A stretch of 64,000 nt of DNA, from contig NZ_CP007139.1 of the NCBI RefSeq assembly GCF_000724625.1, positions 310,001 to 374,000 on the forward strand, given 5' to 3'. Made by a program: the position numbers and the translations under genes. Positions 5,458-52,542 of the stretch are shown here, in pieces. Every line of letters begins with the position of its first letter. The stretch's first letter is position 1. This DNA is from Fimbriimonas ginsengisoli Gsoil 348. GTDB taxonomy: Bacteria > Armatimonadota > Fimbriimonadia > Fimbriimonadales > Fimbriimonadaceae. The notes under the pieces are model-generated. The model saw only the letters and a list, made by a program, of their open reading frames with translations. It was not told where the DNA came from and did not search any database.

Positions 5458-6557
5458 TGCGTCGTATGTTCGCCAAAACAACCCTGCTTCTCGGCGTGAT
5501 TCTGTCGGCATGCTCTGCTCAGGCAGAGCATCAGAAACTGGATCGGACCACCGCCCTGCGCCTCATGTCTCCCGGTATCAACTTCGGCAACACGTTGGAA
5601 GCGATCCCGAAAGAAACATCTTGGGGCAATCCCGAACCGAACGCGGCCGCGTTTCGCGCCATTCGCGCGGCAGGATTTAGAAGCGTGCGGATTCCGATCG
5701 CCTGGACGCAATACGCGGATACGGACAACAACATTGGCGCGGCTTGGATGAAGCACGTCACCGACGTTGTTCGCATGGCCGAAGGCGCCGACTTGTTCGT
5801 CGTCATCAACATCCACTGGGATGGCGGCTGGTTACAGCCCACTCCGCAAAAGCGTGAGGCGGCGACCAAGAAGCTGTGTAAGTTCTGGAAGCAAATCGCC
5901 GCAAACTTCGGGGAGTTCGACCAACGCCTCTTGTTCGCCGGAACGAACGAGACGGGGATCGAGGGTCAGTACGGTATTCCCGCCCCGGATAACGCCGAGA
6001 TTCAGAACAGCTTTAACCAGGCGTTCGTAAACACGGTTCGGTCGACGGGAGGTCGAAATCGCGACCGCTTCCTGGTCGTGCAGGCCTACAGCACGGACAT
6101 CGATTCGGCTATGAAGTTCAATACGGTCATGCCGACGGATACAGTGAAGGGGCGGCTCATGATGGAGGTCCACTTCTATTCGCCGTATAACTTCACGCTG
6201 AACGAGAAGAGCGATGTGTGGCAGTGGGGCGCCAACGCGACGGATCCGAAGGCGACCGATACCTGGGGGAACGAGGCGTACGTCGACGGGCAGTTTCTAA
6301 AGGTAAAGCAGGCGTTTGTCGACAAGGGGGTGCCCGTCATTCTGGGTGAGTATGCGGTAGGGCTCAAGCCCAAATTCCCCGGGATGAGGCGATATCAGAA
6401 GGATTGGGTGGCCTACGTCACCCGGTCGGCGTACCGGAACGGGATGGTGCCGATGTACTGGGATATCGGCGCGGAGAGCGGACTCTTTAACCGCGCTACC
6501 GGCGCCAGGCAAGATTCGGAGTTGATTGGGTCGATCGTGGGGGCAGTGAAAGGATGA
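5457..6557 (+). CDS. Secreted GH5 cellulase-like endoglycanase
   Basis: GH5 enzyme, 366 residues, likely an endo-beta-1,4-glucanase or mannanase. The chosen start ATG 5457 overlaps the GH42 stop (TGATG) and begins a signal peptide (MRRMFAKTTLLLGVILSACSAQA, possibly a lipoprotein via LSAC). The barrel begins with MSPGINFGNTLEA, typical of GH5; NIHWDGGW lies on a beta strand, Glu165 in AGTNETG is the predicted acid/base and Glu298 in LGEYAVG the nucleophile. Length matches a single catalytic domain without a binding module. The TGA overlaps the next gene's ATG (ATGA). Subfamily and substrate are not decidable by eye. Confidence 0.88.
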   Translation: MRRMFAKTTLLLGVILSACSAQAEHQKLDRTTALRLMSPGINFGNTLEAIPKETSWGNPEPNAAAFRAIRAAGFRSVRIPIAWTQYADTDNNIGAAWMKHVTDVVRMAEGADLFVVINIHWDGGWLQPTPQKREAATKKLCKFWKQIAANFGEFDQRLLFAGTNETGIEGQYGIPAPDNAEIQNSFNQAFVNTVRSTGGRNRDRFLVVQAYSTDIDSAMKFNTVMPTDTVKGRLMMEVHFYSPYNFTLNEKSDVWQWGANATDPKATDTWGNEAYVDGQFLKVKQAFVDKGVPVILGEYAVGLKPKFPGMRRYQKDWVAYVTRSAYRNGMVPMYWDIGAESGLFNRATGARQDSELIGSIVGAVKG

Positions 6558-8125
6558 GAAAATACGGATTGGCAGGCGCGCTTTCGCTTTGCCTCGTCGC
6601 TGGAGCGCTTGGCGCTCAGTCGGGAAATCGCACACGTCAGATCGACATCGACGTTAACGCGGTGCAAGGTCCACTTGGGGATGTGTTCCGCCGGTGCGTA
6701 GGCGCCGGGCGGGCGAACGAAGGGCTCCGAGCGGATTGGCAGCGACAGCTCAGGCAGGCGAAGGAGGCGTGCGGCTTCGAGTACATCCGCATGCACGGGC
6801 TCCTGACCGACGACATGGGGGTGTACCGGGAGGAGCGCGGCAAGGCGGTCTATAACTGGCAGTACATCGACGAGCTTTACGACTTCTTGGTCGACCTAAA
6901 AGTAAGGCCGTTTGTGGAGCTCGGCTTTATGCCGGGCGGCTTGGCGAGCGGCAACAACACGATCTTCTGGTGGCGCGGCAACGTGACGCCGCCGAAGGAT
7001 TACGGCAAGTGGTCCGACCTCGTCGCCGCCCTTACCCACCATTGGATCGAGCGCTACGGTCTGGACGAGGTCAAGAAGTGGTACTTCGAGGTCTGGAACG
7101 AGCCGAACCTCCGCGGATTTTGGGCCGCCGACCAGAAGGAGTATTTCCACCTGTACTCGGTGACGGCGAACTCGATCAAGGGGGTCAACCACGATCTGCG
7201 CGTCGGCGGCCCGGCGACGGCGGGAGCCGCGTGGGTGCCAGAGTTCATCCGGTATTGCGTGGACAACAAGACGCCGGTCGATTTCATTACGACCCACACG
7301 TATGGGGTCGACGTAGGGTATCTCGACGAGTTCGGCGGTCGCGGGACGGTGCTTAGCAAGAACCCCGAGTCGATCATCGGGGACGTGAAGCGGGTTCGCA
7401 AACAGATCAAGGAATCGGCGATCCCGTCGCTCCCGCTCCACATGACGGAGTGGAGCTCTTCGTACACCCCCGCCGACCCGGTGCACGACAGCTACGTGAG
7501 CGCTGCTTATATTCTGGAGAAGCTGAAGGGAGCAATTGAAGATGCCGACTCGATGTCTTACTGGACGTTCACCGATATCTTCGAAGAAGCCGGGCCGCGC
7601 ATGACGCCGTTCCACGGCGGGTTCGGGCTGGTCAACTACCAGGACATAAAGAAACCGGCCTTTCGGGCTTACGAATATTTGAACAAGCTCGGCCCCACCC
7701 GACTCCGGTGCGCGGATCCCAATTCGCTGACCGCTACCGACTCGAGAGGTGGCGTGCAGGCGCTCTTCTGGAATTTCACGAACCCGATTCCGGATAAGGT
7801 GAACAACCAGCAGTTCTTCGTGACGGACGTCAAGCCTCATTCAAAAGGCACGGCCAAGTTACGCTTCGCGAACCTCAAGCCCGGGGCCTACCGCCTGGTC
7901 GTGTACCGCGTCGGCTACCGCATCAACGACCCGTTCGCCGATTACCTGGATCTGAGCCGTCCGAGCCAGCTCACCCGACCGCAGGTCGCCAAGATCCAGC
8001 AACGAAACAATGGCAAGCCGGTCCACGAGGAGTCGGTGAGGGTCGGCCCTGGGGAAACGCTCGTCAGGGAATATCCGATGCGGGAGAACGACGTGTATCT
8101 GGTGACGGTCGAGCGGCGAGGGTAG
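6554..8125 (+). CDS. Secreted GH39 beta-xylosidase-like enzyme
   Basis: GH39 family, 523 residues, probably removing xylose (or a related sugar) from oligosaccharide ends. The signal peptide is MRKYGLAGALSLCLVAGALGAQ. The (beta/alpha)8 barrel has predicted acid/base Glu183 in VWNEPNLRGFW and nucleophile Glu299 in MTEWSSSY, both GH39 signatures; DFITTHTYG is also typical. A C-terminal beta-sandwich follows from about residue 390. ATG 6554 overlaps the GH5 stop by 4 nt with GTGAAAGG as a plausible ribosome site. It is the last gene of the coupled trio GH42-GH5-GH39. Confidence 0.9.
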   Translation: MRKYGLAGALSLCLVAGALGAQSGNRTRQIDIDVNAVQGPLGDVFRRCVGAGRANEGLRADWQRQLRQAKEACGFEYIRMHGLLTDDMGVYREERGKAVYNWQYIDELYDFLVDLKVRPFVELGFMPGGLASGNNTIFWWRGNVTPPKDYGKWSDLVAALTHHWIERYGLDEVKKWYFEVWNEPNLRGFWAADQKEYFHLYSVTANSIKGVNHDLRVGGPATAGAAWVPEFIRYCVDNKTPVDFITTHTYGVDVGYLDEFGGRGTVLSKNPESIIGDVKRVRKQIKESAIPSLPLHMTEWSSSYTPADPVHDSYVSAAYILEKLKGAIEDADSMSYWTFTDIFEEAGPRMTPFHGGFGLVNYQDIKKPAFRAYEYLNKLGPTRLRCADPNSLTATDSRGGVQALFWNFTNPIPDKVNNQQFFVTDVKPHSKGTAKLRFANLKPGAYRLVVYRVGYRINDPFADYLDLSRPSQLTRPQVAKIQQRNNGKPVHEESVRVGPGETLVREYPMRENDVYLVTVERRG

Positions 8126-37959: not shown

Positions 37960-40380
37960 TTACGGCCAGGCTTTCGAGCAGAGGCGATCCTTGGTGACCG
38001 TTCCGTCAACCGTGAACCAAGTTTCCTTCGACATGTTATACGCCTTCCACCACCGACCCGGCTCGTCCAACAGCAATTTGGTTGGGCGCAGCGCCACCGG
38101 GATGGTAAGCACTTGGCCCGCTTTCATTTTCGGCAAGACGATGGTGCTCTCGTAAAGCACCACATGCTCCTTAGGCGTGTTTTTTGGATCTAAGGAGTTT
38201 TGATCTTCGGAGTACCAAGACTCGACTCGGATCGTCACCGGTCCCCCACCCCCGTAGGCGCCGGAATCGCTGGAGGCGTACTTCACTCGCAATCTCATAA
38301 TCGACGGTTTGGCGGCAAAATCCGGGTCGGGGATGATCATGGGCGCGCTTGGATCGTTCATAGCGGTTCCCTGCTTTGCCATGTCCGTGAGGCCGGACTG
38401 GATGAGACCGGAGGCTTGGTCCCGAAGGGCATCGCCTGCGCCGGTCGCATCTAGAATTTCTCCCGCAAGATAGTCCGACCCGAGCGAAGTCATCCCGCCA
38501 AAGTCCATCGGGTTGCTTGGCACCCCCATCGAATCGCAGGCGATTTCGATTCCGAACTTCACGATTTCGACTGGGATTCCGGTGGCGCTACTGATCCCCT
38601 CGGCTGCGGACTGCTTTACCTGGTCGTAATACGAGTTCAAGGAGGAAGCGGCTCCTTCCGCCCAAGTGGCGATCGACGCGACAAAGTTCACGCCGTCCGA
38701 AACGTAGTCGGACCAAGACTTGCCGTTGTCCGGCTTCGGCGGCAGGTAGATCTTGTCCCCTTGGTGTGGCGACGGATGATTAGTCAGTGCCGCAAAGAAC
38801 TTGTACATCTCGTCGTCGACGATCGTCCCCTGGTTGGGCTCGCGGGCCAAAACATAGCGGTACGGTTCTTCGAGCTTCAGCGGCTCATAGTGGTCCACCG
38901 TCACAAAGCAGTTGAACGAAGCCGTCGGCGGCTGCTTGGGGGTAGGCAGACCCTGCAACGGACCCTGCGCGGACACGTTAATGAAAACCTTGGCCTCTTC
39001 GGCCGCCGGCTTTCCGCCGGAATCGACGGGGCTTACCTTGATTTCGTAAAATCGGCCGGGCAAGAGCAAAGGCTTGATATCGAGAGCGAACGGCCCTTGG
39101 TGATTGACCGTACTCTCGTTGACAACGTCGTTGCTCCAGTCGTCGATGCGCCGCACGAGGACATTCGCCTTCGTAACGTTCGTCTTCGTCGACCAACGGA
39201 AGGTGATGGTGTCCAGAAAGCTAAGGTCGGTCGAGCTCCCCCAAATCGGCTTCTCCGCCGTTTCACCGTGGGTAAAGGCGGAGTTTGTCCAAATCTCGAG
39301 TTGGGTGGAAGCTAGCGGAGTGGCATCGGCGGCCACCAGGTGAAGCAGCACTTCGTTGGAGGGCTGAGCGGCCAAGTCGCCGTTTGGCTTCAATGGAACC
39401 ACCCGAAGGTAATAGTCTCCCTTTGCGCGAGGCCCGCCGACCAGATAATTTGCCAGGCTGAGCCCGAATAGGTTGATCCCGTCGGACGATCCGGCCGGGA
39501 CGGGGCCGCAATGCCCGAGGCCGGAGAGGCGCCAGGTTCGGGGGTCGTCCGAGAACGGCTTCTGCGAAAGTTGGAAGACGGCGGAGGACGCTCCCGGCGC
39601 CAGCGTCCACCACTTAAGGCTATAGACCGGCAGCGTGCTGGTGATGGTGGTGAGCCAAGGATTGGCATTGTTGGAGGTCTTCACCCGCAAGTTTGAGCTC
39701 ACGTCGGACGGAAGGGCTTCGCCGTACTCGATACAGGCATTGGTGGACGAAGCTCCTTTCGGATTTACGACCCGAGCGTAATATCGCGTATAGCCGAGGG
39801 CTTGGATCTTTGCAACCGCCAGCTTGGCGGCGGAAGACGATTCTCCATCCACTGCCGCGCCCGCCGGCTTTCCGATTAGGGCAAAGGCATTGCCTTTCGC
39901 CTTGGGTGCAAAGGCTCCGAAGTTGACGGTAAACGTCCCATCTTGCCCGGTCGTGATCGGAATCTTGTAGAGCAATTCCGGCGGCGTCGCCTTGATTTGA
40001 TTGACCGATGACAACCCGGCCCCGGCGGGCGCATTCGTCAGGGCGGGAGCAATAGCATAAACCTCGAACGTTCCCGTCTTTGGAAACGGCCCCGCGCCAT
40101 TTAGCTTAAATTCCACCGCCGGCGCGGCGGACCGCCATGAGACGCTGGCGGTCGAGGAGAACGAGGTGTCGTCCAACTTCCCCGGTCTTCCGTTAGGAGA
40201 CGGGGCCGGCGTATCGACCTTGGGTCGCGCCACGAGGGAGTCGCGGACGGACAGTCCACGCTGTTGACCGACCAAGATCGGGCGCTGACCGCGCTTGATC
40301 GGCGCCTTGATTTCCTGGCCGAACGCCCCGGCGGCGATCGCGCAAGCCAGAGTGACCACTAACCATTTGTCCCCACGCAT
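37960..40380 (-). CDS. Large secreted protein, unknown, with beta-sandwich repeats
   Basis: 806 residues from ATG 40380, where a signal peptide starts (WLVVTLACAIAAGAFGQ); the frame is open to 40524. Residues 60-500 consist of fibronectin/Ig-like stretches (SVSWRSAAPAVEFKLNGAGPF; ITFRWSTKTNVTKANVLVRR). The part 570-690 is helical and small-residue-rich (ASSLNSYYDQVKQSAAEGIS; YLAGEILDATGAGDALRDQAS). The C-terminus returns to beta. It looks like a cell-surface or extracellular protein of this lineage. No enzymatic motif seen. Confidence 0.6.
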   Translation of the reverse strand: MRGDKWLVVTLACAIAAGAFGQEIKAPIKRGQRPILVGQQRGLSVRDSLVARPKVDTPAPSPNGRPGKLDDTSFSSTASVSWRSAAPAVEFKLNGAGPFPKTGTFEVYAIAPALTNAPAGAGLSSVNQIKATPPELLYKIPITTGQDGTFTVNFGAFAPKAKGNAFALIGKPAGAAVDGESSSAAKLAVAKIQALGYTRYYARVVNPKGASSTNACIEYGEALPSDVSSNLRVKTSNNANPWLTTITSTLPVYSLKWWTLAPGASSAVFQLSQKPFSDDPRTWRLSGLGHCGPVPAGSSDGINLFGLSLANYLVGGPRAKGDYYLRVVPLKPNGDLAAQPSNEVLLHLVAADATPLASTQLEIWTNSAFTHGETAEKPIWGSSTDLSFLDTITFRWSTKTNVTKANVLVRRIDDWSNDVVNESTVNHQGPFALDIKPLLLPGRFYEIKVSPVDSGGKPAAEEAKVFINVSAQGPLQGLPTPKQPPTASFNCFVTVDHYEPLKLEEPYRYVLAREPNQGTIVDDEMYKFFAALTNHPSPHQGDKIYLPPKPDNGKSWSDYVSDGVNFVASIATWAEGAASSLNSYYDQVKQSAAEGISSATGIPVEIVKFGIEIACDSMGVPSNPMDFGGMTSLGSDYLAGEILDATGAGDALRDQASGLIQSGLTDMAKQGTAMNDPSAPMIIPDPDFAAKPSIMRLRVKYASSDSGAYGGGGPVTIRVESWYSEDQNSLDPKNTPKEHVVLYESTIVLPKMKAGQVLTIPVALRPTKLLLDEPGRWWKAYNMSKETWFTVDGTVTKDRLCSKAWP

Positions 40381-40462
40381 AGGACATTTAACAACATCAA
40401 TGCAGTCGTCATGGGTCGAATGGAAGAACGAGTTTTCCGACTCAGTTGTGAGAGCAATGGGG

Positions 40463-41059
40463 CTAGCGGGAAACGGGCTCGGTACCTGCCCATCTGGCCA
40501 AGTGCTCACCGAGATCGTCACCACGGATGAGGCCGTGCGGTCCCCAGAAGACGTCGTAACCAGCCAACGACGGCCCGGGATTCCCTCCCGAGAACGAAGT
40601 CCAACTGCTCCATGGGCGAACGTCGATCCATTTATGCGGTGGCGTCTTGTGAACGATTAGCCCCTGTCGCGGCGCCGTCTCGGTTCGTCCAAGGTACGTG
40701 AAATTAACTTGGCTTTCGCCGAGAACAATCCGATTGCGGCCTGCGGGCAATGCCACGAATAAGGCGCCCACCGCAAAGAAAAAGAGGGCGAGAGCGATTC
40801 GCCCGAAAATGCTCTCCGGATCCCTTAGGATGAAAGGTAGGAAGCTAGCGAAGAGGCATGCACCGCCGATCACCCATTGGAATGGGATCCCGATTGCCGA
40901 CAAAATTAAAAAGTAGGCGGCGGCCGCGGCCGGCCGGGCGACGAAAACCGGTGTGTACCCCGGCCTCAGCTTTTGCCAGCACCTTAGGAGGAAGAACGGA
41001 GTCGGCAAGAGGGCGAAAATCCACGAAGCCTCCGTTCCGACCAGCGTATACGTTTCCAC
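40463..41059 (-). CDS. Membrane protein, unknown
   Basis: 198 residues with about four hydrophobic segments (SWIFALLPTPFFLLRCW; AAAAAYFLILSAIGIPFQWV; GGACLFASFLPFIL; IALALFFFAVGALFVALP) and a soluble C-terminal domain of about 90 residues. No family recognised. 82 nt upstream of the large secreted protein on the same strand. Confidence 0.55.
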   Translation of the reverse strand: METYTLVGTEASWIFALLPTPFFLLRCWQKLRPGYTPVFVARPAAAAAYFLILSAIGIPFQWVIGGACLFASFLPFILRDPESIFGRIALALFFFAVGALFVALPAGRNRIVLGESQVNFTYLGRTETAPRQGLIVHKTPPHKWIDVRPWSSWTSFSGGNPGPSLAGYDVFWGPHGLIRGDDLGEHLARWAGTEPVSR

Positions 41060-41158
41060 CGCTTAAACCCCTCTAGACCCGCATGCCAGTCTATCAATTG
41101 CAAAGTCCCATTGGGTTGTCGGATTCCCGCCGGGCTTTCGTTCATCATTGTTACGGCA

Positions 41159-42019
41159 GTGGATCAAAGCAGCGTTTTAGTGGAGCGGTTCGAGGAGAAT
41201 CGGGCGCAACTGCGGGCGGTGGCGTTTCGGATGCTGGGCTCTCTGAGCGAGGCGGACGACGCCGTGCAGGAGAGCTGGCTGAGGCTAAATCGCTCCGACC
41301 GCACGGAAGTGGAGAACCTTGGCGGGTGGCTGAAAACGGTCGTCGCCAGAGTCTGCCTGGACATGCTCCGCGCGCGGAAATCACGGCGCGAAGATTCACT
41401 GGATAGCCGGACCTCCGAGGTTAAGGCAGGCGGCGCAGATCCGGAGGAGGAGGCGCTGCTTGCCGACTCCGTTGGTACGGCTCTGCTTGTGGTGCTTGAA
41501 ACACTCGCCCCCGCCGAACGGGTCGCGTTCGTCCTGCACGACATGTTCGACGTGCCGTTTGAGGAGATCGGAATGGTCATCGGGCGGTCACCGATGGCGG
41601 CCAGGCAGCTCGCCAGCCGCGCCCGACGAAGGGTAAAAGGGGCCGAGGAACCTCCGGAAGCCGACCTTACGCTACAGCGGAATATCGTGGCCGCCTTTAT
41701 GGCCGCCTCCCGAGCAGGCGATTTCGAAGGTCTTCTCGCGGTACTCGATCCCGACGTGGTGGTCCGCGCCGACCGGCTGGCCGTTTCGTTCGGGGCCGCC
41801 CCGGAGGTTCGCGGGGCGGCCGAGGTTGCCGGCACCTTCTTGGGTCGCGCTCAGGCCGCGCGGCCGGCGCTGGTGGACGGAGTCGCCGGCCTCGCCTGGG
41901 TCGTGGATGGACGGCCACGGGTCGTCTTCGAGCTCACGTTCGTCAATGGCCGAATCGCCACGATCGACCTCCTCGCCGATAACGAGGTCCATCAAGCAAT
42001 GGACCTCGTTGTCGAGTGA
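41159..42019 (+). CDS. ECF41-type (SigJ-like) RNA polymerase sigma factor
   Basis: 286 residues from GTG 41159 (CATTGT 7 nt upstream); the frame is open from 41111. Region 2: LRAVAFRMLGSLSEADDAVQESWLRLNR; region 4: LETLAPAERVAFVLHDMFDVPFEEIGMVIGRSPMAARQLASRARRR. From about 180 there is a SnoaL-like domain (NIVAAFMAASRAGDFEGLLAVLDPDVVVRAD), which in ECF41 factors replaces an anti-sigma factor as regulator. It is convergent with a carboxymuconolactone decarboxylase gene, a known companion of this group. Confidence 0.85.
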   Translation: MDQSSVLVERFEENRAQLRAVAFRMLGSLSEADDAVQESWLRLNRSDRTEVENLGGWLKTVVARVCLDMLRARKSRREDSLDSRTSEVKAGGADPEEEALLADSVGTALLVVLETLAPAERVAFVLHDMFDVPFEEIGMVIGRSPMAARQLASRARRRVKGAEEPPEADLTLQRNIVAAFMAASRAGDFEGLLAVLDPDVVVRADRLAVSFGAAPEVRGAAEVAGTFLGRAQAARPALVDGVAGLAWVVDGRPRVVFELTFVNGRIATIDLLADNEVHQAMDLVVE

Positions 42020-42488: not shown

Positions 42489-42941
42489 TTACCACCCCCC
42501 GGGCGCCTGGCGAGTGGCGGCGTTGACTCGGTTGAACAGGTTGGTCGTGGCGATCCAAAGAACGATGGCGGCGAGCGCCGGCTCCTCGAAGTGCTTGGCG
42601 GCTTCGTTCCAAATTTCATCCGGAACGGGGTCGGATCGATCGCTGAGCCGAGTCATCGCCTCGCTTAGCGCGAGCGCCGCTCGCTCCGCGTCCGAAAAAT
42701 AAGGCGTGTCGCGCCAAGCCGCCACGGCGAAAAGCCGCTCGTCGGTTTCGCCCGCCTTCTTCGCGTTTCGCGCCCCACCATCGACGCATGCGCTGCACCC
42801 GTTGATCTGACTCGCCCGGAGGTGCACAAGAGCGAGAATCGGCGCAGGCGCCGCGCTCTTATGAACGGTCGAAACGAGCGACATGATTGCGGGCATAGCA
42901 TCGGGGAGGAGGGTGGCGGGATTGCTCATTCGTGATTGCAT
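42489..42941 (-). CDS. Carboxymuconolactone decarboxylase/AhpD-family protein
   Basis: 150 residues from ATG 42941 (CTGGAGAAAA upstream). The AhpD-like core is LVHLRASQINGCSACVDGGARNAKKAGETDERLF: the CxxC is present, but the His normally four residues after the second Cys is Gly here, so peroxidase-type chemistry may be altered. Later LSEAMTRLSD and VLWIATTNLFNRVN are typical of the family. Convergent with the ECF41 sigma gene, which in other bacteria controls such a gene. Confidence 0.85.
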   Translation of the reverse strand: MQSRMSNPATLLPDAMPAIMSLVSTVHKSAAPAPILALVHLRASQINGCSACVDGGARNAKKAGETDERLFAVAAWRDTPYFSDAERAALALSEAMTRLSDRSDPVPDEIWNEAAKHFEEPALAAIVLWIATTNLFNRVNAATRQAPGGW

Positions 42942-43041
42942 GGTCAGTTTTCTCCTGGCGGGCTCTCGGCGGAGCCCTTCACCGCCATGACGAAACTCGC
43001 TTGCGGAATGTGACAAGACCCTGAGCCCCGGCCTTTGAAGC

Positions 43042-43521
43042 TCAATGCTCGGCGAGTCCCTTGGGATATCGGTCGGCCACGAGGTTGAGCTGGAGGCCGT
43101 GTTCTAGAAACGCCTTGGCGCCCGCGAGAACGAGGGTAAATCCTTGGGTGGAGTCGGCCACCTGCCTCACTAGGTCGTCGCCGGAGCCGGTGAAGCCGGA
43201 GTGGGTGATGTCGACGAACGTGCCGTCATCCCGAGAGGTGAACCGCCACTCGACGGATGTGGGGCCGCCTGCGCCGGGGAACTCGATCAGGATGCGATGG
43301 TCTGGCTCGACCTCCTTCACGGCAATGGGAACGGAAATGCCGAACATCTCCCAATCCCACTGAACCTGGGCGCCAGCCACCAATCTCCCGCTCCCCTTGG
43401 TGAACCAAAACTTCGTGATGATTTCCGGGTTGACGAACGCCTCGAACACTTCGCCGACCGGCTTGCGGATGAGCATGCCGGTCTTCATGATCGGGATCTG
43501 TGTAAGCTGAAATTCGACCAT
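43042..43521 (-). CDS. SRPBCC (AHSA1/START-like) protein
   Basis: 159 residues with the AHSA1-type fold: IRKPVGEVFEAFVNPEIITKFWFTKGSGRL, then VKEVEPDHRILIEFPG and VDITHSGFTGSGDDLVRQVADSTQGF. The fold binds hydrophobic ligands; activity unknown. Its ATG 43521 is 3 nt after the serine hydrolase stop and lies inside a perfect inverted repeat (43518-43540) that may lower translation. Last gene of the run that begins with the Cys-rich protein; it may or may not belong to that system. Confidence 0.85.
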   Translation of the reverse strand: MVEFQLTQIPIMKTGMLIRKPVGEVFEAFVNPEIITKFWFTKGSGRLVAGAQVQWDWEMFGISVPIAVKEVEPDHRILIEFPGAGGPTSVEWRFTSRDDGTFVDITHSGFTGSGDDLVRQVADSTQGFTLVLAGAKAFLEHGLQLNLVADRYPKGLAEH

Positions 43522-43540
43522 GGCTTATTTTAAGCCATGG
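43518..43540. promoter_or_regulatory. Perfect 10-bp inverted repeat over a stop/start junction
   Basis: CCATGGCTTA (43518-43527), 3 nt, TAAGCCATGG (43531-43540). It contains the stop of the serine hydrolase and the start codon of the SRPBCC gene. In mRNA it would form a hairpin that hides the start codon. Confidence 0.6.
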
Positions 43541-45351
43541 CCCTGAGGCAAAGCCGATGGCTTCTCTGCTTCGATCGCTCGCGCCAAGGCGGCGATGGCG
43601 GCAGGTTCCTTCAGGTCGTAGTCTTGCTCAGTCCAGCTCCAAAAGTTCTTTTGAAGCCTCACGATCACCATTTCCAGATCGGGGAAGATCGTACAGTTGT
43701 TCGAGTAAGCGCCCCGCATCCCGATCCAATGAGTCCGGTATTTTTTGGGCAGCTTTCTGGAGTAGTCGTCGAGATAGAAGAGATCCGAATACGCTCCACT
43801 TGAATCGTAGGCGACCGTTTGAATCCAGTCTTCGGGGATCACCTGCGTCCCTTGCCACTTCCCTTTCGCTAAAACGACGGCCCCGATTCGAGCGAGCTCC
43901 CGGGCTCGAAACTTAGCGCCCGTAAAGAGATCGGTATTTCCGAACGGGTCGGTATCGAAGCCGCTATCGCGACCGATTCCCAAGGGACCGAAAAGCCGTT
44001 TTCGGGCGAATTCGTGGACGGGTTTGCCGAGCACCTGCTCCAGGATCGGATCCAATAACTGGACGCCGTAGCTACAGTAAGCCCAGTCGCCGCGGTCGTG
44101 GATCGGCTTCAGACCAAGGGCATTTCGGTCGAGATCGGCGGTCAGCGGAATACCGCGACTGTACAACTCGCTGTCGTCCGGAAGGCCGGCGGTCATGTCG
44201 AGCAGGTCTTGAACGGTCACCTCATCCCGCATCCCTCCCCTCCAGTCCTTTAGGTACTTGGCCACTTTCTCGTCGGAGTTCAGCTTGCCGTCTCCCTCCG
44301 CGATGGCGGCGACTAATCCGGTAATCGATTTCGTCGACGAATAGATGTTGATCGGCTGGCCGGAATACCGGTCCGAGTACCACTCGGTGACAAGGTGGCC
44401 ACGTAGCAGGATCAGGCATGCGTCGGCTCCGGTGCGTTGGCAGAGGCTTAAATAGGTTCCTAGAGCCCCATCCGCGTTCGAGCTCAGTCCAATCTCCTCG
44501 CGTTTCGCCCGCGTATCCGCCGCAGGAAACATAGAGTCTTCAGCCGGTCGGAAACTCCGCCCGGGCGGGGCGTGCGAGAGGCCGAACCGGCGCAGCCAAT
44601 GATCCATGTCCTCCAGAAGGCACTCACGGCGATAGCGGGTCTCCGAGTCGGAGATGGGAGCCGCGGCAAGCTTTCGAACGGCCGAAGCCAGGCTCGACGC
44701 GGCGCTCAAGCGCCCCGCAAGCCCTTCGACGCGAACAAGGGCGGTTAGCGCCATGAGGTACGTCACCGACCCGGGGCCCGAAAGGCCGATCGGAGTATTC
44801 AGCATCGTCCAAGCCCGCTTTCTTACCACGGCAGCGTTGGGGCTGAGGAGCTCCATGAAGTTCGACAACTCCCGGTCTTTCGAAACGAACTTCTCGAATC
44901 CGTCTCGCGCATTCGGGCCGAATCGGCGCTTCAGGCTGTATACGAGATCCAAGGTTTGCATCTGACGACGCGGCTCCGCAAGCGAATCTCCACTCTCGGT
45001 CCTTTCGATTTCCCTCTTGGCGCGAGCGGCATCGATTCGCTTGCCTTGGGCCAGGCAAGCCTCGTACAGCAGAAGATTGCCGAGGGTACGGAACCGCCGG
45101 GTGGGTTTTCCGGGGCGCCGAGACCGCAATGCGGAGCGAACGAATCGCTCCGCACCGGCCCAGTCGCTACCGTAGGCGAATTTTATGAATCCATCTTGCA
45201 ACGCCTGAAACGGATCGGCTTTCAAGCTGGCTGAGGAGGCTAATCTTTGTTGACGCAAGCTTGGAGCTCCACTCGTTACGCAAACGAAAGTTGCGAAAAG
45301 GACCACCCCAACGGCCGCGACGCGCCACCTACCTAGACTGCTCCTATTCAT
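43525..45351 (-). CDS. Secreted serine hydrolase, class C beta-lactamase fold
   Basis: 608 residues. The N-terminal hydrophobic signal (VAAVGVVLFATFVCVTSGA) is followed by about 230 helical residues without a known domain, then a beta-lactamase/transpeptidase-like fold from about 280. The nucleophile is in SSTKSITGLVAAIA (SxxK), the second motif is YCSYG (Tyr as in the YxN/YxS class), and WIGMRGAYSN lies near the third motif. It may be an esterase or peptidase. It starts 9 nt after the kinase-LanC gene, so it probably belongs to that operon and could act on the exported product. Confidence 0.8.
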   Translation of the reverse strand: MNRSSLGRWRVAAVGVVLFATFVCVTSGAPSLRQQRLASSASLKADPFQALQDGFIKFAYGSDWAGAERFVRSALRSRRPGKPTRRFRTLGNLLLYEACLAQGKRIDAARAKREIERTESGDSLAEPRRQMQTLDLVYSLKRRFGPNARDGFEKFVSKDRELSNFMELLSPNAAVVRKRAWTMLNTPIGLSGPGSVTYLMALTALVRVEGLAGRLSAASSLASAVRKLAAAPISDSETRYRRECLLEDMDHWLRRFGLSHAPPGRSFRPAEDSMFPAADTRAKREEIGLSSNADGALGTYLSLCQRTGADACLILLRGHLVTEWYSDRYSGQPINIYSSTKSITGLVAAIAEGDGKLNSDEKVAKYLKDWRGGMRDEVTVQDLLDMTAGLPDDSELYSRGIPLTADLDRNALGLKPIHDRGDWAYCSYGVQLLDPILEQVLGKPVHEFARKRLFGPLGIGRDSGFDTDPFGNTDLFTGAKFRARELARIGAVVLAKGKWQGTQVIPEDWIQTVAYDSSGAYSDLFYLDDYSRKLPKKYRTHWIGMRGAYSNNCTIFPDLEMVIVRLQKNFWSWTEQDYDLKEPAAIAALARAIEAEKPSALPQGHGLK

Positions 45352-45360
45352 TCGAGCGCT

Positions 45361-47793
45361 CTACGACTCGCGTCCGAACATGGGGAGGCACGCGTATTCG
45401 GGGAGCGTTAAATCAGATGCCATCACCACGATGCCGCCCATGCTCTTGTAAAGCGAGTAACCGGTTTGGCCGCTGCCGATCGCATCCATTCCCACCTGCT
45501 CCGCCCGCTTCAGCCATCTTGGATCCTTGGACACATTGTACATATCCATCAGGGCGTACGCTTTGCCTGCGGATCCGCAGCAGAGCGACGCGATCCCTTC
45601 CCGGTCCTGCCAAGTGCTGGACGCGGCCCCTTCGGCAAGGGCCATGTAGCGGTCGTCACCGTACGTTTGCGCGGCTTCGATCCAGAGGTGCACCCAGCCG
45701 GCATGGCCGTTGCACCAACCCGTCGACGAGTGTTCGTGGGCGATGGAGTAGGGCCAGCGGAGACCTTTTTGATAAACTTGGGCAAGCTCGACCAGTTGCT
45801 CGAGGCGGGTCTGAACGGCATCGATCGGCGGGGTTCCGGTCGCGTTGTGCCACCGCAAAGCGCCGTAGCAAAGCCCCGACCAGCCATGCGCGATTCCGAG
45901 CAGGTCGATTTTTCTGTCTTCGCCCACCGCGCCCATTTCACCAAGCTGCGCCCAGATCCCCTTGAACATCTGATCCCCCAGAGCCCAAATGGGACGGAGA
46001 TCGATGTGGCTGGATTTGCGAAAGTGCTCCAGCGCGATGGCGCACGAGAGGAGGACGCCGGTCCGGCCGATGGTGAGGTCCGGGTTGTCGCATGGCGCGG
46101 CCGTGGCGGCCTCGACAAACTTACCAAGGGCGCGGTTGCACACTTCGAAATCGCCCATCGCCTCGCTTATGAGCGCCTGCACCATGTAAACGCCCGAGGG
46201 TGAGTGCAGCGGGCAGATGTCGCCCACCGTTTCGTGGGTGATCTGAACCTCGAGCCCGTGAAACGCCCTTGCGTCGTGGATGTGAGCCACAGACTTCGAG
46301 ATCCAGAGATCGGCGAGGGAGAGCAAATCGGCGCTCTCGTACCGAGCTCCGAGTCGATAGAGCGCATAAGCGATTCCGGCACCGCCGTATTTGATGCTGC
46401 AAGAGGGATGGCGGCGGAAAACGATGTCGAACCAATCTTGCTCGGGCCCGCACCAATCCACGAACTCTCGGATATAACGACCACCCGGGCGATTCGCCTG
46501 ACTACCGAGGCGGAATGAAACCCGGTCGCCGTAATCCGGCGCCTCCGGCTCCGGCCCCATCGATTGCACGAAGGTGCCGTGAAACGCCCGCATGGATGGG
46601 TGCCGGTCCGCCGGGTCTTTCGCGAGCCCTTTTAAGATCGCCGACTCGAGTCTCGGATTGATGCGGTCGAAATACGAAGTGAGGGGTAATGGCGGCTCCT
46701 CCACGATTTGGCGCATCTGCTCCGGCAATTCCATTGAAAACGGGAGGTACTGGCCGTTGGCGATGTTCTCGTCGCTTAGAACTTCGTAGGCCATTACCGC
46801 CACCGTGTACTGCTCGCCCAACATGCTGGCCGGGGGAGGGATGACGTTTTCGTGGCGCGCGGCAGCGAACTCGGGCTCGAAGTATCGCGAGACTCCGGCG
46901 CGCGCCGGAATATCGTCCAGGTCTTCCACGAAACGGCCGAAGCCGAAGTCGATGAGTCGAACGGTATTGTCCTCCATCACGAGGATGTTGCGAGGGTGAA
47001 CGTCGCCGTGGACGCACCCGCGGTCATGGAGGCGGGCGTAAGCGTCGATGACCCTTTCGGCCAGCGCCGCGCGAAGCGTCTTCAACTGGATTAGGTCCGC
47101 TTGGCGGGTGAGGTTGCCGCTCTTCTTTTGATAGATCTGGCTAACCTCGCTTAACGACATCCCTTCCAGCCATTCCATCACCAGGTAGGCGCGCTCCTCG
47201 AACCGGCCCACCTCGCGGAGCTTCGGCGTCGGATCTCCCTCCAGGCGGGTCAAGATGCGCCCTTCCCGCTCGAACAGCTCGTTCATGTAGGCGTTCGCAC
47301 TGCCAGCCCGTACGATCTTAAGCGCGTAGAAGTCCGCCTCACCCTCGCGCACCAAGTAGACCTCGGTGTCTTCCAGCAGTTGGCAGCAGCGGACCACCTC
47401 GAAGTCTTTGAACTTCTCTCCTATTTGGAGACTGGGTTTAGTCAGCAGGGCCTGATCCGACCCTTCGCGGGTTAAGCAATCGTCCTCCACGAGGGCAAAG
47501 AGCATGGAGCTTGCGGAATCCAAGACCGGTATCGGGTCGGCATCGAGCGAGTCGCTGAACGCGATAATCCCGTCGACGAGCGTTCGAGGAGTTCTAAACT
47601 GCTCTAAGAGAAGACCGGCGTCTTTCGAAAGAATTTTAGTGCCCCCACGAGCGTATCGCCGGGTGAGGGCATAGTCCGATTCCTTGTACTCCATGAACGA
47701 CCGGATCGCCTTGGGAAGGGCAAGCACCGGGGACAGGACGACGTCTTCCGGAAGGACGAACAGGGCGTCTTTGGCTTCTTCGATGGTTAGCAT
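45361..47793 (-). CDS. RRE-kinase-LanC fusion, lanthipeptide-synthetase-like
   Basis: 810 residues. About 40-110 resembles a PqqD-like RiPP recognition element (YALTRRYARGGTKILSKDAGLLLEQF ... LFALVEDDCL). About 130-410 is a complete protein kinase domain: Lys159 in FYALKIV, HGDVHPRN (262-269), Asp282 in IDFGFGR. About 440-810 is a LanC cyclase with its repeated signatures: GGAGIAYALYRLG, GIAHGWSGLCYG (His636), WCNGHAGW (Cys693) and CCGSAG (Cys738-Cys739), giving a three-Cys zinc site of the CCG kind. Class III/IV synthetases have lyase-kinase-cyclase; here a lyase domain is missing. It is flanked by a Cys-rich candidate substrate. Confidence 0.85.
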   Translation of the reverse strand: MLTIEEAKDALFVLPEDVVLSPVLALPKAIRSFMEYKESDYALTRRYARGGTKILSKDAGLLLEQFRTPRTLVDGIIAFSDSLDADPIPVLDSASSMLFALVEDDCLTREGSDQALLTKPSLQIGEKFKDFEVVRCCQLLEDTEVYLVREGEADFYALKIVRAGSANAYMNELFEREGRILTRLEGDPTPKLREVGRFEERAYLVMEWLEGMSLSEVSQIYQKKSGNLTRQADLIQLKTLRAALAERVIDAYARLHDRGCVHGDVHPRNILVMEDNTVRLIDFGFGRFVEDLDDIPARAGVSRYFEPEFAAARHENVIPPPASMLGEQYTVAVMAYEVLSDENIANGQYLPFSMELPEQMRQIVEEPPLPLTSYFDRINPRLESAILKGLAKDPADRHPSMRAFHGTFVQSMGPEPEAPDYGDRVSFRLGSQANRPGGRYIREFVDWCGPEQDWFDIVFRRHPSCSIKYGGAGIAYALYRLGARYESADLLSLADLWISKSVAHIHDARAFHGLEVQITHETVGDICPLHSPSGVYMVQALISEAMGDFEVCNRALGKFVEAATAAPCDNPDLTIGRTGVLLSCAIALEHFRKSSHIDLRPIWALGDQMFKGIWAQLGEMGAVGEDRKIDLLGIAHGWSGLCYGALRWHNATGTPPIDAVQTRLEQLVELAQVYQKGLRWPYSIAHEHSSTGWCNGHAGWVHLWIEAAQTYGDDRYMALAEGAASSTWQDREGIASLCCGSAGKAYALMDMYNVSKDPRWLKRAEQVGMDAIGSGQTGYSLYKSMGGIVVMASDLTLPEYACLPMFGRES

Positions 47794-47813
47794 GGCGGTT
47801 GAAAACGGGGTGA

Positions 47814-49037
47814 TCAGGAAAGCGTTTGAAGAAGGTGCTCCTTGGGGCGCCAGAGCGAGGCGTCGATACCGGCGAACTCTGCCTTCGCCTTGGCGAAATC
47901 ACGAGCTTCGGCAAGCGAAAGGTCGCGCTTCGATGCGGTAACGAGAGCGTTTCCCAGCACTTCGGAGACCCAGACTCTCCAACTCGACGACGTGCGCCGC
48001 CCGGCCGATTCGTCGGCCGGAGTATCGGAGCCCCAGGAGAGGAGTCCGTCTCCAGTGAGGTCGGCCGTGAAGGGGACTCCCTGGGCTTCGGCCGTTCCCA
48101 ACCCCTTCGCGAGGACAGCAGCCGTGTCCAAGAGGTCGGCCGCGTTAGCGAAGTAGACCACCATTTTGTCGGGTCGCAACAGGCCGGGCATGCTCGCTCC
48201 GATTTTCATGCCGACAGCGTCGGATCCCATGACGATCGGGAGTGAAGCCGACAGCACCCTTGGCAGATCCGCAACGACGGGACTGATGTAAAGCTTTGCG
48301 TCACCTTCCCAAGTTCGATCTCGCAAAGTGTCGATGGCGTTTCGAGCGTTTTCGGTTCGGCCAGGTTGCCAGTGGTGCCACCAACCGCCACGTTCGGCGG
48401 GGTGGAAGGTCCAAGAGCGGGACGAAGGGGACGAGATGACCGGCTCGTTCTTATCGATATTCAGGAAGCTCAATACCGATTCCTCGGTCGAGAGGAGCGC
48501 TCTCGATGTCCGGGATGGCGGAACGGCGTTGTATTGATAAAGCCGCTGAATCACGCTTCGGGTAAGGCCCGCGCGGCTAGGCGCATGAGAAGCCGCCTGC
48601 AGGAAGCGGTATCCGTAATCGAGCGCGGCGTCGGAGATCGCCGCGGTGCGGCTTTCCGGCCTGGACTTGCCCTGAATACCCGCCTCGAGCAATCGAATGG
48701 CGCGGAGGCCAGTGACGAACTCACCGTTGCACTCGACGTCGAGAATGCCCGCCAAGAGGAGATTACCGACCCGGTCGCTCATCGGGACGGTCAACTGGCT
48801 TCGCAGGTGGAACGGCAGCCTGGCCGGTTTCCGGACCGAAAAATAGAGGAGGGCCGCTTCGGCGGAGGCGCGCACCGTCTGCGTCCACCGGTCCGCTCCA
48901 CGTTTCGGCACAAAGAGCCCGAAATGTCCCGCCGAGGCGGATCCAAACGTGAACCGCTCGGGCAGCCGGTCGGCTGCCACGAGCGTGTAGTTCGGATTTA
49001 CCCGGAAGATTTTGTCATCCAGAGAGAGATCCAGCAT
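47814..49037 (-). CDS. Unknown protein between Cys-rich gene and LanC fusion; candidate lyase
   Basis: 407 residues, no signal peptide. A middle segment (about 205-345) has the only notable pattern: WHHWQPGRTENARNAID, then GMKIGASMPGLLRPDKMVVYF (275-296) and QGVPFTADLTGDGLLSWGSD (319-338), then SSSWRVWVSEVLGNALV. The order K ... (R)PD..V.Y ... PFT ... G(L) recalls HopA1-like proteins that serve as phospho-Ser/Thr lyases in class V lanthipeptide loci, but this is a weak likeness from memory. Its place, 9 nt after the Cys-rich gene and 20 nt before the kinase-LanC gene, argues for a role in the same pathway. Confidence 0.6.
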   Translation of the reverse strand: MLDLSLDDKIFRVNPNYTLVAADRLPERFTFGSASAGHFGLFVPKRGADRWTQTVRASAEAALLYFSVRKPARLPFHLRSQLTVPMSDRVGNLLLAGILDVECNGEFVTGLRAIRLLEAGIQGKSRPESRTAAISDAALDYGYRFLQAASHAPSRAGLTRSVIQRLYQYNAVPPSRTSRALLSTEESVLSFLNIDKNEPVISSPSSRSWTFHPAERGGWWHHWQPGRTENARNAIDTLRDRTWEGDAKLYISPVVADLPRVLSASLPIVMGSDAVGMKIGASMPGLLRPDKMVVYFANAADLLDTAAVLAKGLGTAEAQGVPFTADLTGDGLLSWGSDTPADESAGRRTSSSWRVWVSEVLGNALVTASKRDLSLAEARDFAKAKAEFAGIDASLWRPKEHLLQTLS

Positions 49038-49046
49038 TTGTCTTGG

Positions 49047-49697
49047 CTACGAGATGATTTTTTCTTCGAGGCGAGCCCGCATCTTCCCGCGCATCGCATC
49101 GAGAAGCTGGGTTTGAAGAGCCTTCTTCGGGTCTTCCGGCGTCGGTACCGGCCACGAGGCTTTTTGGGTACACGGCTTCGTCGGCTCCTTCTTGCACGGG
49201 TGGGTATTTTCCCACTCCGTGCAGCCACATCCGGCCGTGTTGGGACTATCTTTGGCGCACGTGTTGTCGGTGTTACAGTTCACCGTGTTGATTAGACATG
49301 AGGGCTTCTCACCCTTACAGTCCGCGCCGGTCTTGACGTTCGAACAGTGGCATTCGGTCGTCTGGCGGGTACACACGCCGCAGATCTGGGTCTCGTCGCA
49401 CTTGGTATGGTGGCCGTTGCACACCGTATCTTCGTCGCAGTGCTCTTTAGTTGGCGAAGCTACCGGGCATTTGCCTCCGTGGGGGGGCCTCGTCGCACTA
49501 ACGAGGGTCGGACACGCGAGGATACATGGAACTTGATAAGTCCCGATGTTCGTGCACCAGATAGTGCACGCACCGAGAGCCTCTACGATAGGCCCAGACG
49601 GGTCGCCGTCAACCTCCGGATAAGCCTTGATCGCTAGATTCTTAAACTCGAAGCTGAGCTTTATTTCATCTCTAGAATTGGAAGTAGTGTCTTTCAC
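49047..49697 (-). CDS. Cys-rich protein, candidate RiPP (lanthipeptide-type) precursor
   Basis: 216 residues from GTG 49697. Residues 1-43 have no Cys (EIKLSFEFKNLAIKAYPEV, ending in EALGA) and resemble a leader. Residues 44-176 contain 20 Cys (44, 48, 58, 62, 77, 87, 93, 100, 106, 109, 116, 118, 127, 134, 141, 147, 157, 159, 168, 176) and about 25 Ser/Thr, many shortly before a Cys (TVC, TKC, TTEC, TGADC, NTC). Residues 185-216 form a Cys-free, charged helix. Adjacent kinase-LanC and unknown genes fit a modified peptide. It could instead be a disulfide-rich or metal-binding protein, since it is far longer than known lanthipeptide precursors. Confidence 0.7.
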   Translation of the reverse strand: MKDTTSNSRDEIKLSFEFKNLAIKAYPEVDGDPSGPIVEALGACTIWCTNIGTYQVPCILACPTLVSATRPPHGGKCPVASPTKEHCDEDTVCNGHHTKCDETQICGVCTRQTTECHCSNVKTGADCKGEKPSCLINTVNCNTDNTCAKDSPNTAGCGCTEWENTHPCKKEPTKPCTQKASWPVPTPEDPKKALQTQLLDAMRGKMRARLEEKIIS

Positions 49698-49749: not shown

Positions 49750-52542
49750 CTAGCAGATCTGCAGATACCTCTCGGGAATCGAGGCCGAGCCGGAGGGGAT
49801 ACTGATCGTTATCCCGTCGAGGACGATGTTTCCGGGAAGACTGGTCAGCACGCCCGTCGAGTATCGAACCACTCCGAACGAGTCGAACAGGCACGTTCCG
49901 ATGGTGGCGACGGAGCTGTTCGTCGATAGGAACGGTCCGCCGATCACCGCGTCGGCGAAGTAGGAGCCACTGACGGCCACGATCCGGTTCGGTCCCTGGA
50001 TGTATCTCGCGATTTCCGCCCAAGTTCCCGAGGAGATCGGTTTTTGGCTGGCGATCAGAACCCGTCCTGCGAGCAAGCCGGTGCCACAGGCAAACCGAGT
50101 TATCGTTCCCAGGACGTAGTCCTTGTACCAAGCAAGGCAACCGTCCGGGTCGTAGGCAAACTCGTAAGCCAACACGCCCCCGCTTCCGTAGTTACGGGAG
50201 ATGCTGAGGAGCTTTCCGTCCTCATAGTAGTCCAGCTCCCGCGTGTACCCCGGCCCGGGGAACGAAGCCAAGGTGGCATCGTGGTACCAGGTGTAATTCT
50301 CCGTGGTCGACGTGGCGCTATCCACAACCTGCGTGAGATATCCGGCCGCCGAGTACGTATAGGCTCCGTTATGGGAGGTCACACCGTTTTCCGAACGGAC
50401 CGCGGTCTGGATCTGGCCATGCGAATTGTAGGTGTACGATCCCTGGTAGATCGAGGTACCGGTTCGCGTCTCCTGGGTCAGCCTCCCATAGCTGTCGTAG
50501 CTGAAGGAGGTAACCGCGCCGCTTGGCTGTTCGGTGATTTGCGAGATCAGTCCGGTGGTCGAGTTGTACGCCGCCGTGTAGGAGACGATGAGCGCGCTCG
50601 TGCTCGCAACCTTGTTCGAGACGCTGACCAGCCGCGACGTGGTGTCATAGCCGTACTGGATCACCATCCCGTTACCGGGCGTACAACTCAGAACCTGATT
50701 ATTGGAGTTATAGGTGTATTGAACCGGACCCGTTCCGTCGCTGAGAGCGATAGAACTGATCGCGTTGTTCGAGCCCCAGTTGAAGGTGTGGCTTCGACCC
50801 GCGGTGTCGGTGACGGTCGACGGCCGGTTACTAGAATCGAAGGTAGCGGATACGGTTCCTTCGGGTCCGGTTTTCGACGTTCGCTTACCTAAGTTGTTGA
50901 GAACGTAGCTGTACGAGCCGGCCGCGTTGGAGCCTGAGGTGAGGTTGCTCTGCACGTTGTAACCCCAAGACTCGCTCGTATGCCCCGTCGTTGGGAATGC
51001 GACGGCGGTGACGCGCCCCCAAGCATCCCTCGTATAGTTGGTGATTCGCCCCCTCGCGTCGGTTTGGGACGAGAGCAGGTTGTTCGTATAGGAGAAGCTC
51101 TCGCTGTATCCCATGACGTTCGTCATCGCGGTCATCTTGCCGCTCGAATCGAAAGTCGTGAGGGCTTGGGCGCCGGTCGTCGTATCGGTGAACGAGGTCG
51201 GGTTTAGGTTGCTGTCGTAGGCGATCGTAAAGGAATCGCCGCCGCCGCCCGAGATCGAGGTGATTTGGGAGTTTGAGTCGAACGCCCTTGTCGGAGTGGA
51301 GATTCCCCCCGTCGACTGGGCGGTCGTTCGGCCGGCCGAATCGAGCGTGTAGGTCGTAACGACTCCGCTGGGATCCGTAGCGGTTAGCGGGCGGCCGACG
51401 GAGTCGTGCGTCCAACTCCAACCGCCGCCGCCGGCGAGGGTTTGGGAGGTCAGATTATTGTTCGCGTCATACGCATACACCGATCGGTCGCTGGAGACCC
51501 CGGCGTAAGCCACTAGCCGGCCGTTGCCGTCAAAGCCGTACTGGTCCGCGCCGGCCGGAAGGGTGACCACGCCGGCGGCGACCACGTTGAGCGGCCATCC
51601 ACCACCGGAGACGGGATTTGAGTTACCGCAAACATACGTGGCGGAATTACCGGCAGCGTCCGTGGTCCCGGTAAGCAGGCCGGTCGAACTGAACGTATAG
51701 CTGGAGGAGTTGCCGGCGTGGTCGGTAATTTGGTTGACGACCCCTTGCGCGTTGTAGGCAAATTGGGTGGTGTAAACCGTGCCCCCCAGTGACGGCAGAC
51801 TGTGACCGGTAAGCACTCCGCTCGTGTAGGTCAAGGTGTGGACGGCCCCCGTTAGGTCGGTGACCGACGTTAGAAGGCCGCTGGTATAGCCGAACGAGAG
51901 CGTGTCGCCGCCTTTCTGAACGGAGGTCAACTGGCCTGAGCCGTTGTAGGTGCATTGGATAAGCACCGCCCCGGAGAGCGAGTTCCGCACCGCATCGAGG
52001 GCTCCGTTCGAGAGGAAGTGAATGTTCAGCGTGCCCTGAAGGTCGGACAAGGTCCAAGTGCCGTCGAGGTTGTGGACGAGAGATTTCCAGCAACCGACCG
52101 GGGCGGTGTATGTCGACCCGCTCACCGCAAAATCGTAAGTGGAACCATCCGCGGCGATATAGGTCGCCTTGCCAAGCGAGGTAGTGATTTGGCCGGAGAA
52201 AGAGTGTCGCCACTTCGCGCCGAGCGGACCGCCGGTAGCGGTGCTCGTGCTGTTGTGGTACAGGATAAAGTCGAGCGAATCGGCGCAGGCAACCGGATAG
52301 GTGAAGAGGTAGTTGCCGGTAAGCAGGTTATAGGACCCGTAGTCTTGAGTCACCCCACCTTGCCATGGGCGAGGCTCGCCCTTGGGGTCGATCGCTACCG
52401 TTTTGCCGGTGGCGTGGGCGAGTTCTGGCAGGCCGAGAATCGATACGGCGCCCAGGCCAACGGCTACGGAAATGGAGTTCTTCAGGAATTGCCGGCGCGA
52501 TTGTTCAAGCGCCTCATCGTAGTTGCTCTTTCGGTTGCTCAC
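49750..52542 (-). CDS. Tat-exported YD/RHS-repeat protein without core or toxin
   Basis: 930 residues. The N-terminus has a twin-arginine signal (SRRQFLKNSISVAVGLGAVS). After a DUF6531-like start (LLTGNYLFTYPVACADSLDF) come some twenty YD repeats (YDSNLNPTSFTDTTTG; YDTTSRLVSVSNK; YDSYGRLTQETRTG; YDPDGCLAWYKD). The usual RHS-associated core (GLYYxRxRYYDPxxGRF) and a C-terminal toxin are absent; the protein ends in SIPERYLQIC. It may be a surface shell or adhesin rather than a toxin. It lies 52 nt upstream of the Cys-rich gene, same strand. Confidence 0.82.
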   Translation of the reverse strand: MSNRKSNYDEALEQSRRQFLKNSISVAVGLGAVSILGLPELAHATGKTVAIDPKGEPRPWQGGVTQDYGSYNLLTGNYLFTYPVACADSLDFILYHNSTSTATGGPLGAKWRHSFSGQITTSLGKATYIAADGSTYDFAVSGSTYTAPVGCWKSLVHNLDGTWTLSDLQGTLNIHFLSNGALDAVRNSLSGAVLIQCTYNGSGQLTSVQKGGDTLSFGYTSGLLTSVTDLTGAVHTLTYTSGVLTGHSLPSLGGTVYTTQFAYNAQGVVNQITDHAGNSSSYTFSSTGLLTGTTDAAGNSATYVCGNSNPVSGGGWPLNVVAAGVVTLPAGADQYGFDGNGRLVAYAGVSSDRSVYAYDANNNLTSQTLAGGGGWSWTHDSVGRPLTATDPSGVVTTYTLDSAGRTTAQSTGGISTPTRAFDSNSQITSISGGGGDSFTIAYDSNLNPTSFTDTTTGAQALTTFDSSGKMTAMTNVMGYSESFSYTNNLLSSQTDARGRITNYTRDAWGRVTAVAFPTTGHTSESWGYNVQSNLTSGSNAAGSYSYVLNNLGKRTSKTGPEGTVSATFDSSNRPSTVTDTAGRSHTFNWGSNNAISSIALSDGTGPVQYTYNSNNQVLSCTPGNGMVIQYGYDTTSRLVSVSNKVASTSALIVSYTAAYNSTTGLISQITEQPSGAVTSFSYDSYGRLTQETRTGTSIYQGSYTYNSHGQIQTAVRSENGVTSHNGAYTYSAAGYLTQVVDSATSTTENYTWYHDATLASFPGPGYTRELDYYEDGKLLSISRNYGSGGVLAYEFAYDPDGCLAWYKDYVLGTITRFACGTGLLAGRVLIASQKPISSGTWAEIARYIQGPNRIVAVSGSYFADAVIGGPFLSTNSSVATIGTCLFDSFGVVRYSTGVLTSLPGNIVLDGITISIPSGSASIPERYLQIC

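Follow-up and report, generated by a model that had tools for sequence, protein, structure and literature searches.

The operon examined here, which lies in a 64,000-nucleotide stretch of the genome of the Armatimonadota bacterium Fimbriimonas ginsengisoli Gsoil 348 (the window; positions 310001–374000 of the 5.23-Mb single-contig genome), very probably encodes a two-enzyme lanthipeptide synthetase, guided by recognition elements (RREs) of the kind used for ribosomally synthesized and post-translationally modified peptides (RiPPs), together with its large Cys-rich substrate. Five open reading frames (ORFs), all on the minus strand (49697–43042) with intergenic gaps of 9, 20, 9 and 3 nt, were located exactly where a preliminary description of this DNA had placed them. 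The first encodes a putative precursor protein, the second a 407-aa protein to which we assign, from a structural model, the missing role of a stand-alone phospho-Ser/Thr lyase, and the third a kinase–LanC fusion with a predicted RRE at its start. The three were found together, with a Cys-containing precursor gene in each case, in six of six loci from five phyla, the window included; this core cassette of the five-gene RiPP operon proposed earlier was therefore retained, whereas the remaining two genes, encoding a serine hydrolase and an SRPBCC protein, were present in the window locus only.

Matches to PF00069 and PF05147 bore out the kinase–LanC fusion read earlier from the sequence. The suspected RRE-like start of this protein was confirmed by fold: its model is a winged-helix, PqqD-like domain, predicted to bind a leader, and its top structural matches were PqqD, TbiB1, TigE, ThcOx, MccB and LanB RREs (Z 10.3 over 87 residues for TbiB1 and 9.4 for PqqD). 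On a Cupriavidus plasmid (L013, 9167–10075) a 2-oxoglutarate (2OG)-Fe(II) oxygenase carries a close copy of this domain, which independently supports its nature as a portable module for recognition. Six kinase residues (K159, E177, H262, D264, N269 and D282) and four LanC residues (H636, C694, C738 and C739, of the CCG type) were invariant in six homologues. The CCG motif gives three Cys zinc ligands, as in ProcM-type cyclases. This is the only LanC domain in the genome, and its best Protein Data Bank (PDB) sequence matches include LANCL1. The best NCBIfam model for the fusion was that of class IV LanL (NF038150), at 143 bits against a cut-off of 650. Four homologues scanned against it scored 138–156 bits and were matched from kinase through cyclase, with the first 189–235 positions of the model, the segment of the LanL lyase domain, unmatched. 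The protein thus resembles a class IV LanL with an RRE in place of the lyase domain and the lyase supplied in trans. The combination of RRE, kinase and LanC is the most notable point of the operon, because class II–V synthetases are reported to lack an identifiable RRE (PMC10604976) and classes II–IV have been treated as RRE-independent (PMC7470986).

For the 407-aa protein, which the preliminary description had left without a family, none was found by sequence, and its identity as a lyase is predicted from its fold. A model of moderate confidence (AlphaFold, built from four homologues; pLDDT 67.7) was closest to LxmY of the class V lexapeptide dehydratase (9dk1, Foldseek E 2.2e-5; 9dk3, VIA-align Z 13.6) and to the HopA1 effector 4rsx (Z 13.8). 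Lower-scoring matches were the lyase domains of CuvL (class IV) and ThurKC (class III), at Z 9.8–11.5, and after them two phosphothreonine lyases, OspF and SpvC, at Z 8–9. Residues K278, R288 and Y295 are spaced by 10 and 7, the same spacings as K219, R229 and Y236 of CaoY, and K248, 30 residues before K278, lies near the position of CaoY R187 and SpvC K104. In CaoY, K219 is essential (K219A loses elimination), R187A nearly abolishes and R229Q impairs activity, and Y236 is a conserved Tyr (PMC9486802). Residues 3–108 may form a second RRE, as suggested by VIA-align matches of the model to the RREs of MibB (188–286), TigE (4–86) and MccB (1–85), with Z of 6.1–6.8. The structure predictions proposed in the preliminary description returned a LanY/HopA1-like lyase fold for this protein and an RRE fold for the start of the kinase–LanC protein. 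A Pfam HopA1 search of 221 Armatimonadota genomes was also made; it gave sub-threshold noise only, with the lyase gene not among it.

The first protein had been described as rich in Ser/Thr with 20 Cys, and 20 Cys and 36 Ser/Thr were counted in its 216 aa. Its Cys content of 9.3 % was the highest or joint-highest among 262 stop-to-stop frames of at least 100 aa in the window (median 1.4 %). GC content at the third codon position was high across all five operon genes (0.68–0.79), which makes this small ORF credible as a gene. All Cys lie in a core, the start of the protein and its helical end being free of Cys, and Ser or Thr occurs 2–5 residues upstream of 15 of the 20 Cys (mean for shuffled sequences 11); Cys accompany Ser/Thr in eight of eight precursors. 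In all six loci a precursor gene lies directly upstream of the lyase gene, overlapping it or no more than about 230 nt away. No second copy of the window precursor was found in the genome.

Two features are common to the precursors in spite of their different cores. One is a strand-like motif before the core (F-K-x-x-D-L-x-V), FEFKNLAIKA in the window precursor, with FKVNDLMIQL, FKIRDLMVTI, YKIKDLMVSM, FRTVDLAANV and FRAKRVRIQI as its counterparts elsewhere. The ligand of an RRE is a strand of alternating hydrophobic residues. The motif was chosen by eye, and the ranks from leave-one-out profiles are supportive and carry no formal probability: the window site ranked 15 of 78,917 sequence windows, the first three counterparts ranked 1, 1 and 1–2, FRTVDLAANV ranked 19 of 9,617 and FRAKRVRIQI 2 of 20,394. 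The other is an amphipathic helix that follows the core, for which pairwise similarity was weak but repeated.

The lyase relatives in the other loci are 26–32 % identical to that of the window. A second Armatimonadota genome (L003/L007) has the cassette with two adjoining precursors (2366–4061; 270 and 282 aa, 28 and 26 Cys) that contain CGACSHAAT-like core repeats and a coiled-coil-like tail, and with a membrane protein between the lyase and kinase–LanC genes; this protein (368 aa, 5385–6491, following the lyase) was not assigned to a family. In a metagenome-assembled genome (MAG) of the Chitinophagales (L005) the genes overlap and a 114-aa precursor has core repeats of NCTSCTHVT, while an Elusimicrobia MAG (L006) has two precursors. 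The cassette is also carried by a Paenibacillus peoriae plasmid (NZ_CP011513.1; L014), whose precursor (7032–7784) consists of three tandem leader–core–helix units, FRTVDLAANVAxANDCxITCLASCG, the leader–core units having DC(G/T)ITCLASCG as core motif, with amphipathic helices both before and after the core; by its sequence, this arrangement is a multi-core lanthipeptide layout. In the sixth locus, on a Cupriavidus oxalaticus plasmid (NZ_CP038636.1; L013), the kinase–LanC gene is on the opposite strand. Besides a precursor with Cys, a lyase like the 407-aa protein, the RRE-2OG-Fe(II) oxygenase and the RRE-kinase-LanC protein, this plasmid region (4265–12467) encodes a LanB dehydratase of class I at full length, so that two dehydration chemistries and hydroxylation possibly act on one substrate.

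The lyase and kinase–LanC genes were not once found apart in the searches made. Among 72,556 plasmids both matched the identical two records and no others, and in a set of 291 Armatimonadota genomes convincing E-values were obtained, with the lyase profile as with the RRE profile, for the same two genomes only. A weak lyase match in a further Armatimonadota genome (G055, L004; E 9e-4, one stop) was lost in the profile search, and a marginal RRE match in another (G271; E 0.007, one stop) was taken as chance. No loci beyond the known ones were found in 398 genomes of the order of the Chitinophagales MAG or in 248 genomes of the phylum of the Elusimicrobia MAG, which indicates that the cassette is rare. 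Viral contigs held no relative and phage records contained ordinary kinases only. A rare cassette scattered over five phyla and plasmids is as expected from horizontal transfer. The co-occurrence of Cys-rich counterparts with both enzymes in all six loci is the opposite of the separation that, according to the preliminary description, would have spoken against a shared pathway.

By analogy with class IV and class V enzymology, and from the fold, residues and gene linkage seen here, a sequence of steps can be proposed. The N-terminal strand motif of the precursor, perhaps with the C-terminal helix, would dock on the RRE of the kinase–LanC protein and probably also on the RRE-like domain of the lyase. 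The kinase would phosphorylate Ser and Thr of the core, and the lyase, acting in trans, would eliminate phosphate to give dehydroalanine and dehydrobutyrine, with K278 as the base assisted by K248, R288 and Y295. Addition of Cys thiols by the zinc LanC domain (C694, C738, C739 and H636) would then close lanthionine and methyllanthionine bridges, of which a single protein could carry as many as about 20. We infer a large, multiply thioether-bridged protein as the product; its bridge number, export and function, like the activities and the docking, are predictions drawn from the gene content, domain folds and conserved catalytic residues and cassette that were observed.

The preliminary description had matched the operon to no known class, and comparison with the established classes agreed. 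The pathway has what lanthipeptide systems share in general, a Ser/Thr-activating enzyme and a LanC-type cyclase with its active-site residues. It is like class IV LanL (VenL, CuvL) in the order of a protein kinase domain and a zinc LanC and in its predicted SpvC/OspF-like lyase chemistry; however, in LanL the lyase forms the N-terminal part of the synthetase itself, where an RRE is found here, so that lyase, kinase and LanC are not in one polypeptide, and NF038150 scores fall far below the cut-off. In class III cyclases the zinc ligands are replaced (PMC10604976), whereas three Cys ligands are invariant here. The LanKC-type synthetases of streptococci (class VI) are similar in being kinase–cyclase proteins that lack a full-length lyase domain, but their lyase and cyclase domains are truncated and their substrates are miniature peptides (PMC10676316), in contrast to the full-length zinc LanC, the complete lyase in trans and the very large substrates (216 aa in the window) of this system. 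A PqqD-like RRE for leader recognition is shared with class I LanB and other PqqD-type RRE enzymes, but the glutamyl-tRNA-dependent LanB dehydratase was absent from the window operon and the flanking genes scanned, although LanB adjoins the Cupriavidus homologue. No published account of this architecture (searched as class VI/VII, RRE-kinase and Fimbriimonas) was found in the open-access literature, to which the search extended.

A relationship with class V has to be weighed. The operon might be a plain class V (Vb) pathway in which LanK and LanC are merely fused, with no separate class. Class Vb uses a kinase, a HopA1-like lyase and LanC (PMC12328550), the closest solved structure to the lyase is class V LxmY, and, as in LxmKY and CaoKY, kinase and lyase are different polypeptides and the lyase has the same Lys/Arg/Tyr spacing. 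We nevertheless consider this unlikely. Class V kinases are stand-alone and of the aminoglycoside phosphotransferase (APH) type (PF01636), whereas here the best match is PF00069 (E 2.2e-20, against 2.2e-10 for PF01636) in a protein fused to LanC, with class IV LanL as the best NCBIfam match over kinase and cyclase; class V enzymes are reported without RREs (PMC10604976), precursors and leaders differ, the catalytic helper is Lys248 where CaoY has Arg187, and no decarboxylase that would form aminovinylcysteine was seen.

The chemistry and the substrate could also be other than proposed. Dehydration might be followed by addition of an external thiol, as in eukaryotic LanCL with glutathione, or the dehydroamino acids might be left as they are, with no intramolecular rings. 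The LANCL1 match and the lack of recognizable export and peptidase genes fit such a route, but the presence of Cys together with Ser/Thr in all eight precursors (although their close spacing in the window precursor is to a large part matched by shuffled sequences) and the RiPP-like leader–core repeats of Paenibacillus make it very improbable. Hardly any credence can be given to the view that the enzymes act on another substrate and have no relation to the Cys-rich protein, which would then bind metal or hold disulfides: CxxC spacings, weak zinc-ribbon-like matches and the divergence of the cores point that way, but each of the six loci has, immediately upstream of its lyase gene, a Cys-containing gene that bears the shared leader motif. 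Several observations count against a dedicated two-enzyme synthetase with a Cys-rich substrate, the reading preferred here. The cores differ so much between loci that no alignment was possible, and the flanking genes scanned included none that could be recognized as a dedicated exporter or as a leader peptidase. The 407-aa protein had no sequence match in Pfam, NCBIfam or the PDB, nor did a six-member profile reveal relatives there; PF17914 (HopA1) failed to match despite the agreement with LanY in fold and catalytic spacing, so that the assignment depends on the moderate-confidence model. For its N-terminal domain, hhalign to the RRE of the kinase–LanC protein gave only 6.5 %, which was not significant, and the fold Z is just 6–7.

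Table 1. Genes, domains and motifs of the operon (window coordinates)
Feature	Residues	Position	Strand	Evidence or remarks
Cys-rich precursor protein	216 aa	49047..49697	(-)	GTG start; 20 Cys, 36 Ser/Thr
Leader strand motif FEFKNLAIKAYP		49617..49652	(-)	Counterpart motifs in five other loci; leave-one-out profile
Core region	31-180	49158..49607	(-)	20/20 Cys, 6 Ser, 21 Thr
C-terminal amphipathic helix	186-214	49056..49142	(-)	Position and pattern like helices of other precursors; weak pairwise similarity
Predicted stand-alone phospho-Ser/Thr lyase (HopA1/LanY-like fold)	407 aa	47814..49037	(-)	AlphaFold model, Foldseek, VIA-align, six-way alignment
Lyase N-terminal domain, candidate second RRE	1-110	48708..49037	(-)	VIA-align to RREs
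Lyase catalytic domain	125-401	47835..48665	(-)	K248, K278, R288, Y295 invariant in six homologues
RRE-kinase-LanC synthetase (predicted)	810 aa	45361..47793	(-)	Pfam, NCBIfam, alignment of six
RRE domain	1-112	47458..47793	(-)	AlphaFold model, mean pLDDT 83
Ser/Thr kinase domain	144-402	46588..47364	(-)	PF00069 E 2e-20
LanC cyclase domain	465-810	45364..46401	(-)	PF05147 E 3.5e-27; full length
Serine hydrolase (beta-lactamase/esterase fold), possible accessory gene	608 aa	43525..45351	(-)	PF00144; N-terminal hydrophobic segment
SRPBCC/AHSA1 protein, possible accessory gene	159 aa	43042..43521	(-)	PF08327

The last two genes of the operon proved to be what had been read from the sequence, a serine hydrolase with an N-terminal hydrophobic segment and an SRPBCC protein. 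They occur in the window locus only, so that they are no more than possible accessory genes of the pathway. Upstream, an RHS/YD-repeat protein of 930 aa with a twin-arginine signal (49750–52542, minus strand) is encoded by a gene that stops 52 nt short of the start of the precursor gene and, being on the same strand, may share a transcript with the operon; the other five loci have no counterpart. The 3' end of the operon is adjoined by a gene for an AhpD/carboxymuconolactone decarboxylase-like protein (42489–43016), near which lies an ECF (extracytoplasmic function) sigma factor with a SnoaL-like tail, similar to SigJ (41111–42019). Pairing of SigJ with AhpD is common. Further along, an 854-aa protein (37960–40524, minus strand) has an N-terminal hydrophobic segment and no Pfam match at E 0.01. 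An Rfam scan of the window found no RNA, and promoter and terminator scans gave signal at chance level.

We judge the operon to encode a new variant of lanthipeptide synthetase, its chemistry being predicted from genes and models; the chances that specialists would accept it as a separate class are about evenly balanced. On balance we lean slightly towards a further class, in which a pair of RRE-lyase and RRE-kinase-LanC enzymes acts on protein-sized substrates (up to about 280 residues and as many as 28 Cys) that have a strand leader at the N-terminus and a helix at the C-terminus. Its products would be heavily thioether-crosslinked proteins instead of peptides, and horizontal transfer would have scattered it across five or more phyla. 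If this is true, an RRE-bearing kinase-type synthetase with a split lyase would supply a step of architecture that is missing between LanL and class V, leader-guided dehydration would extend to large substrates, and the size limit of lanthionine-containing products would be widened to whole proteins. An RRE-kinase-LanC gene adjoining a gene for a lyase like the 407-aa protein, a combination overlooked by present curated models, offers a handle for genome mining.

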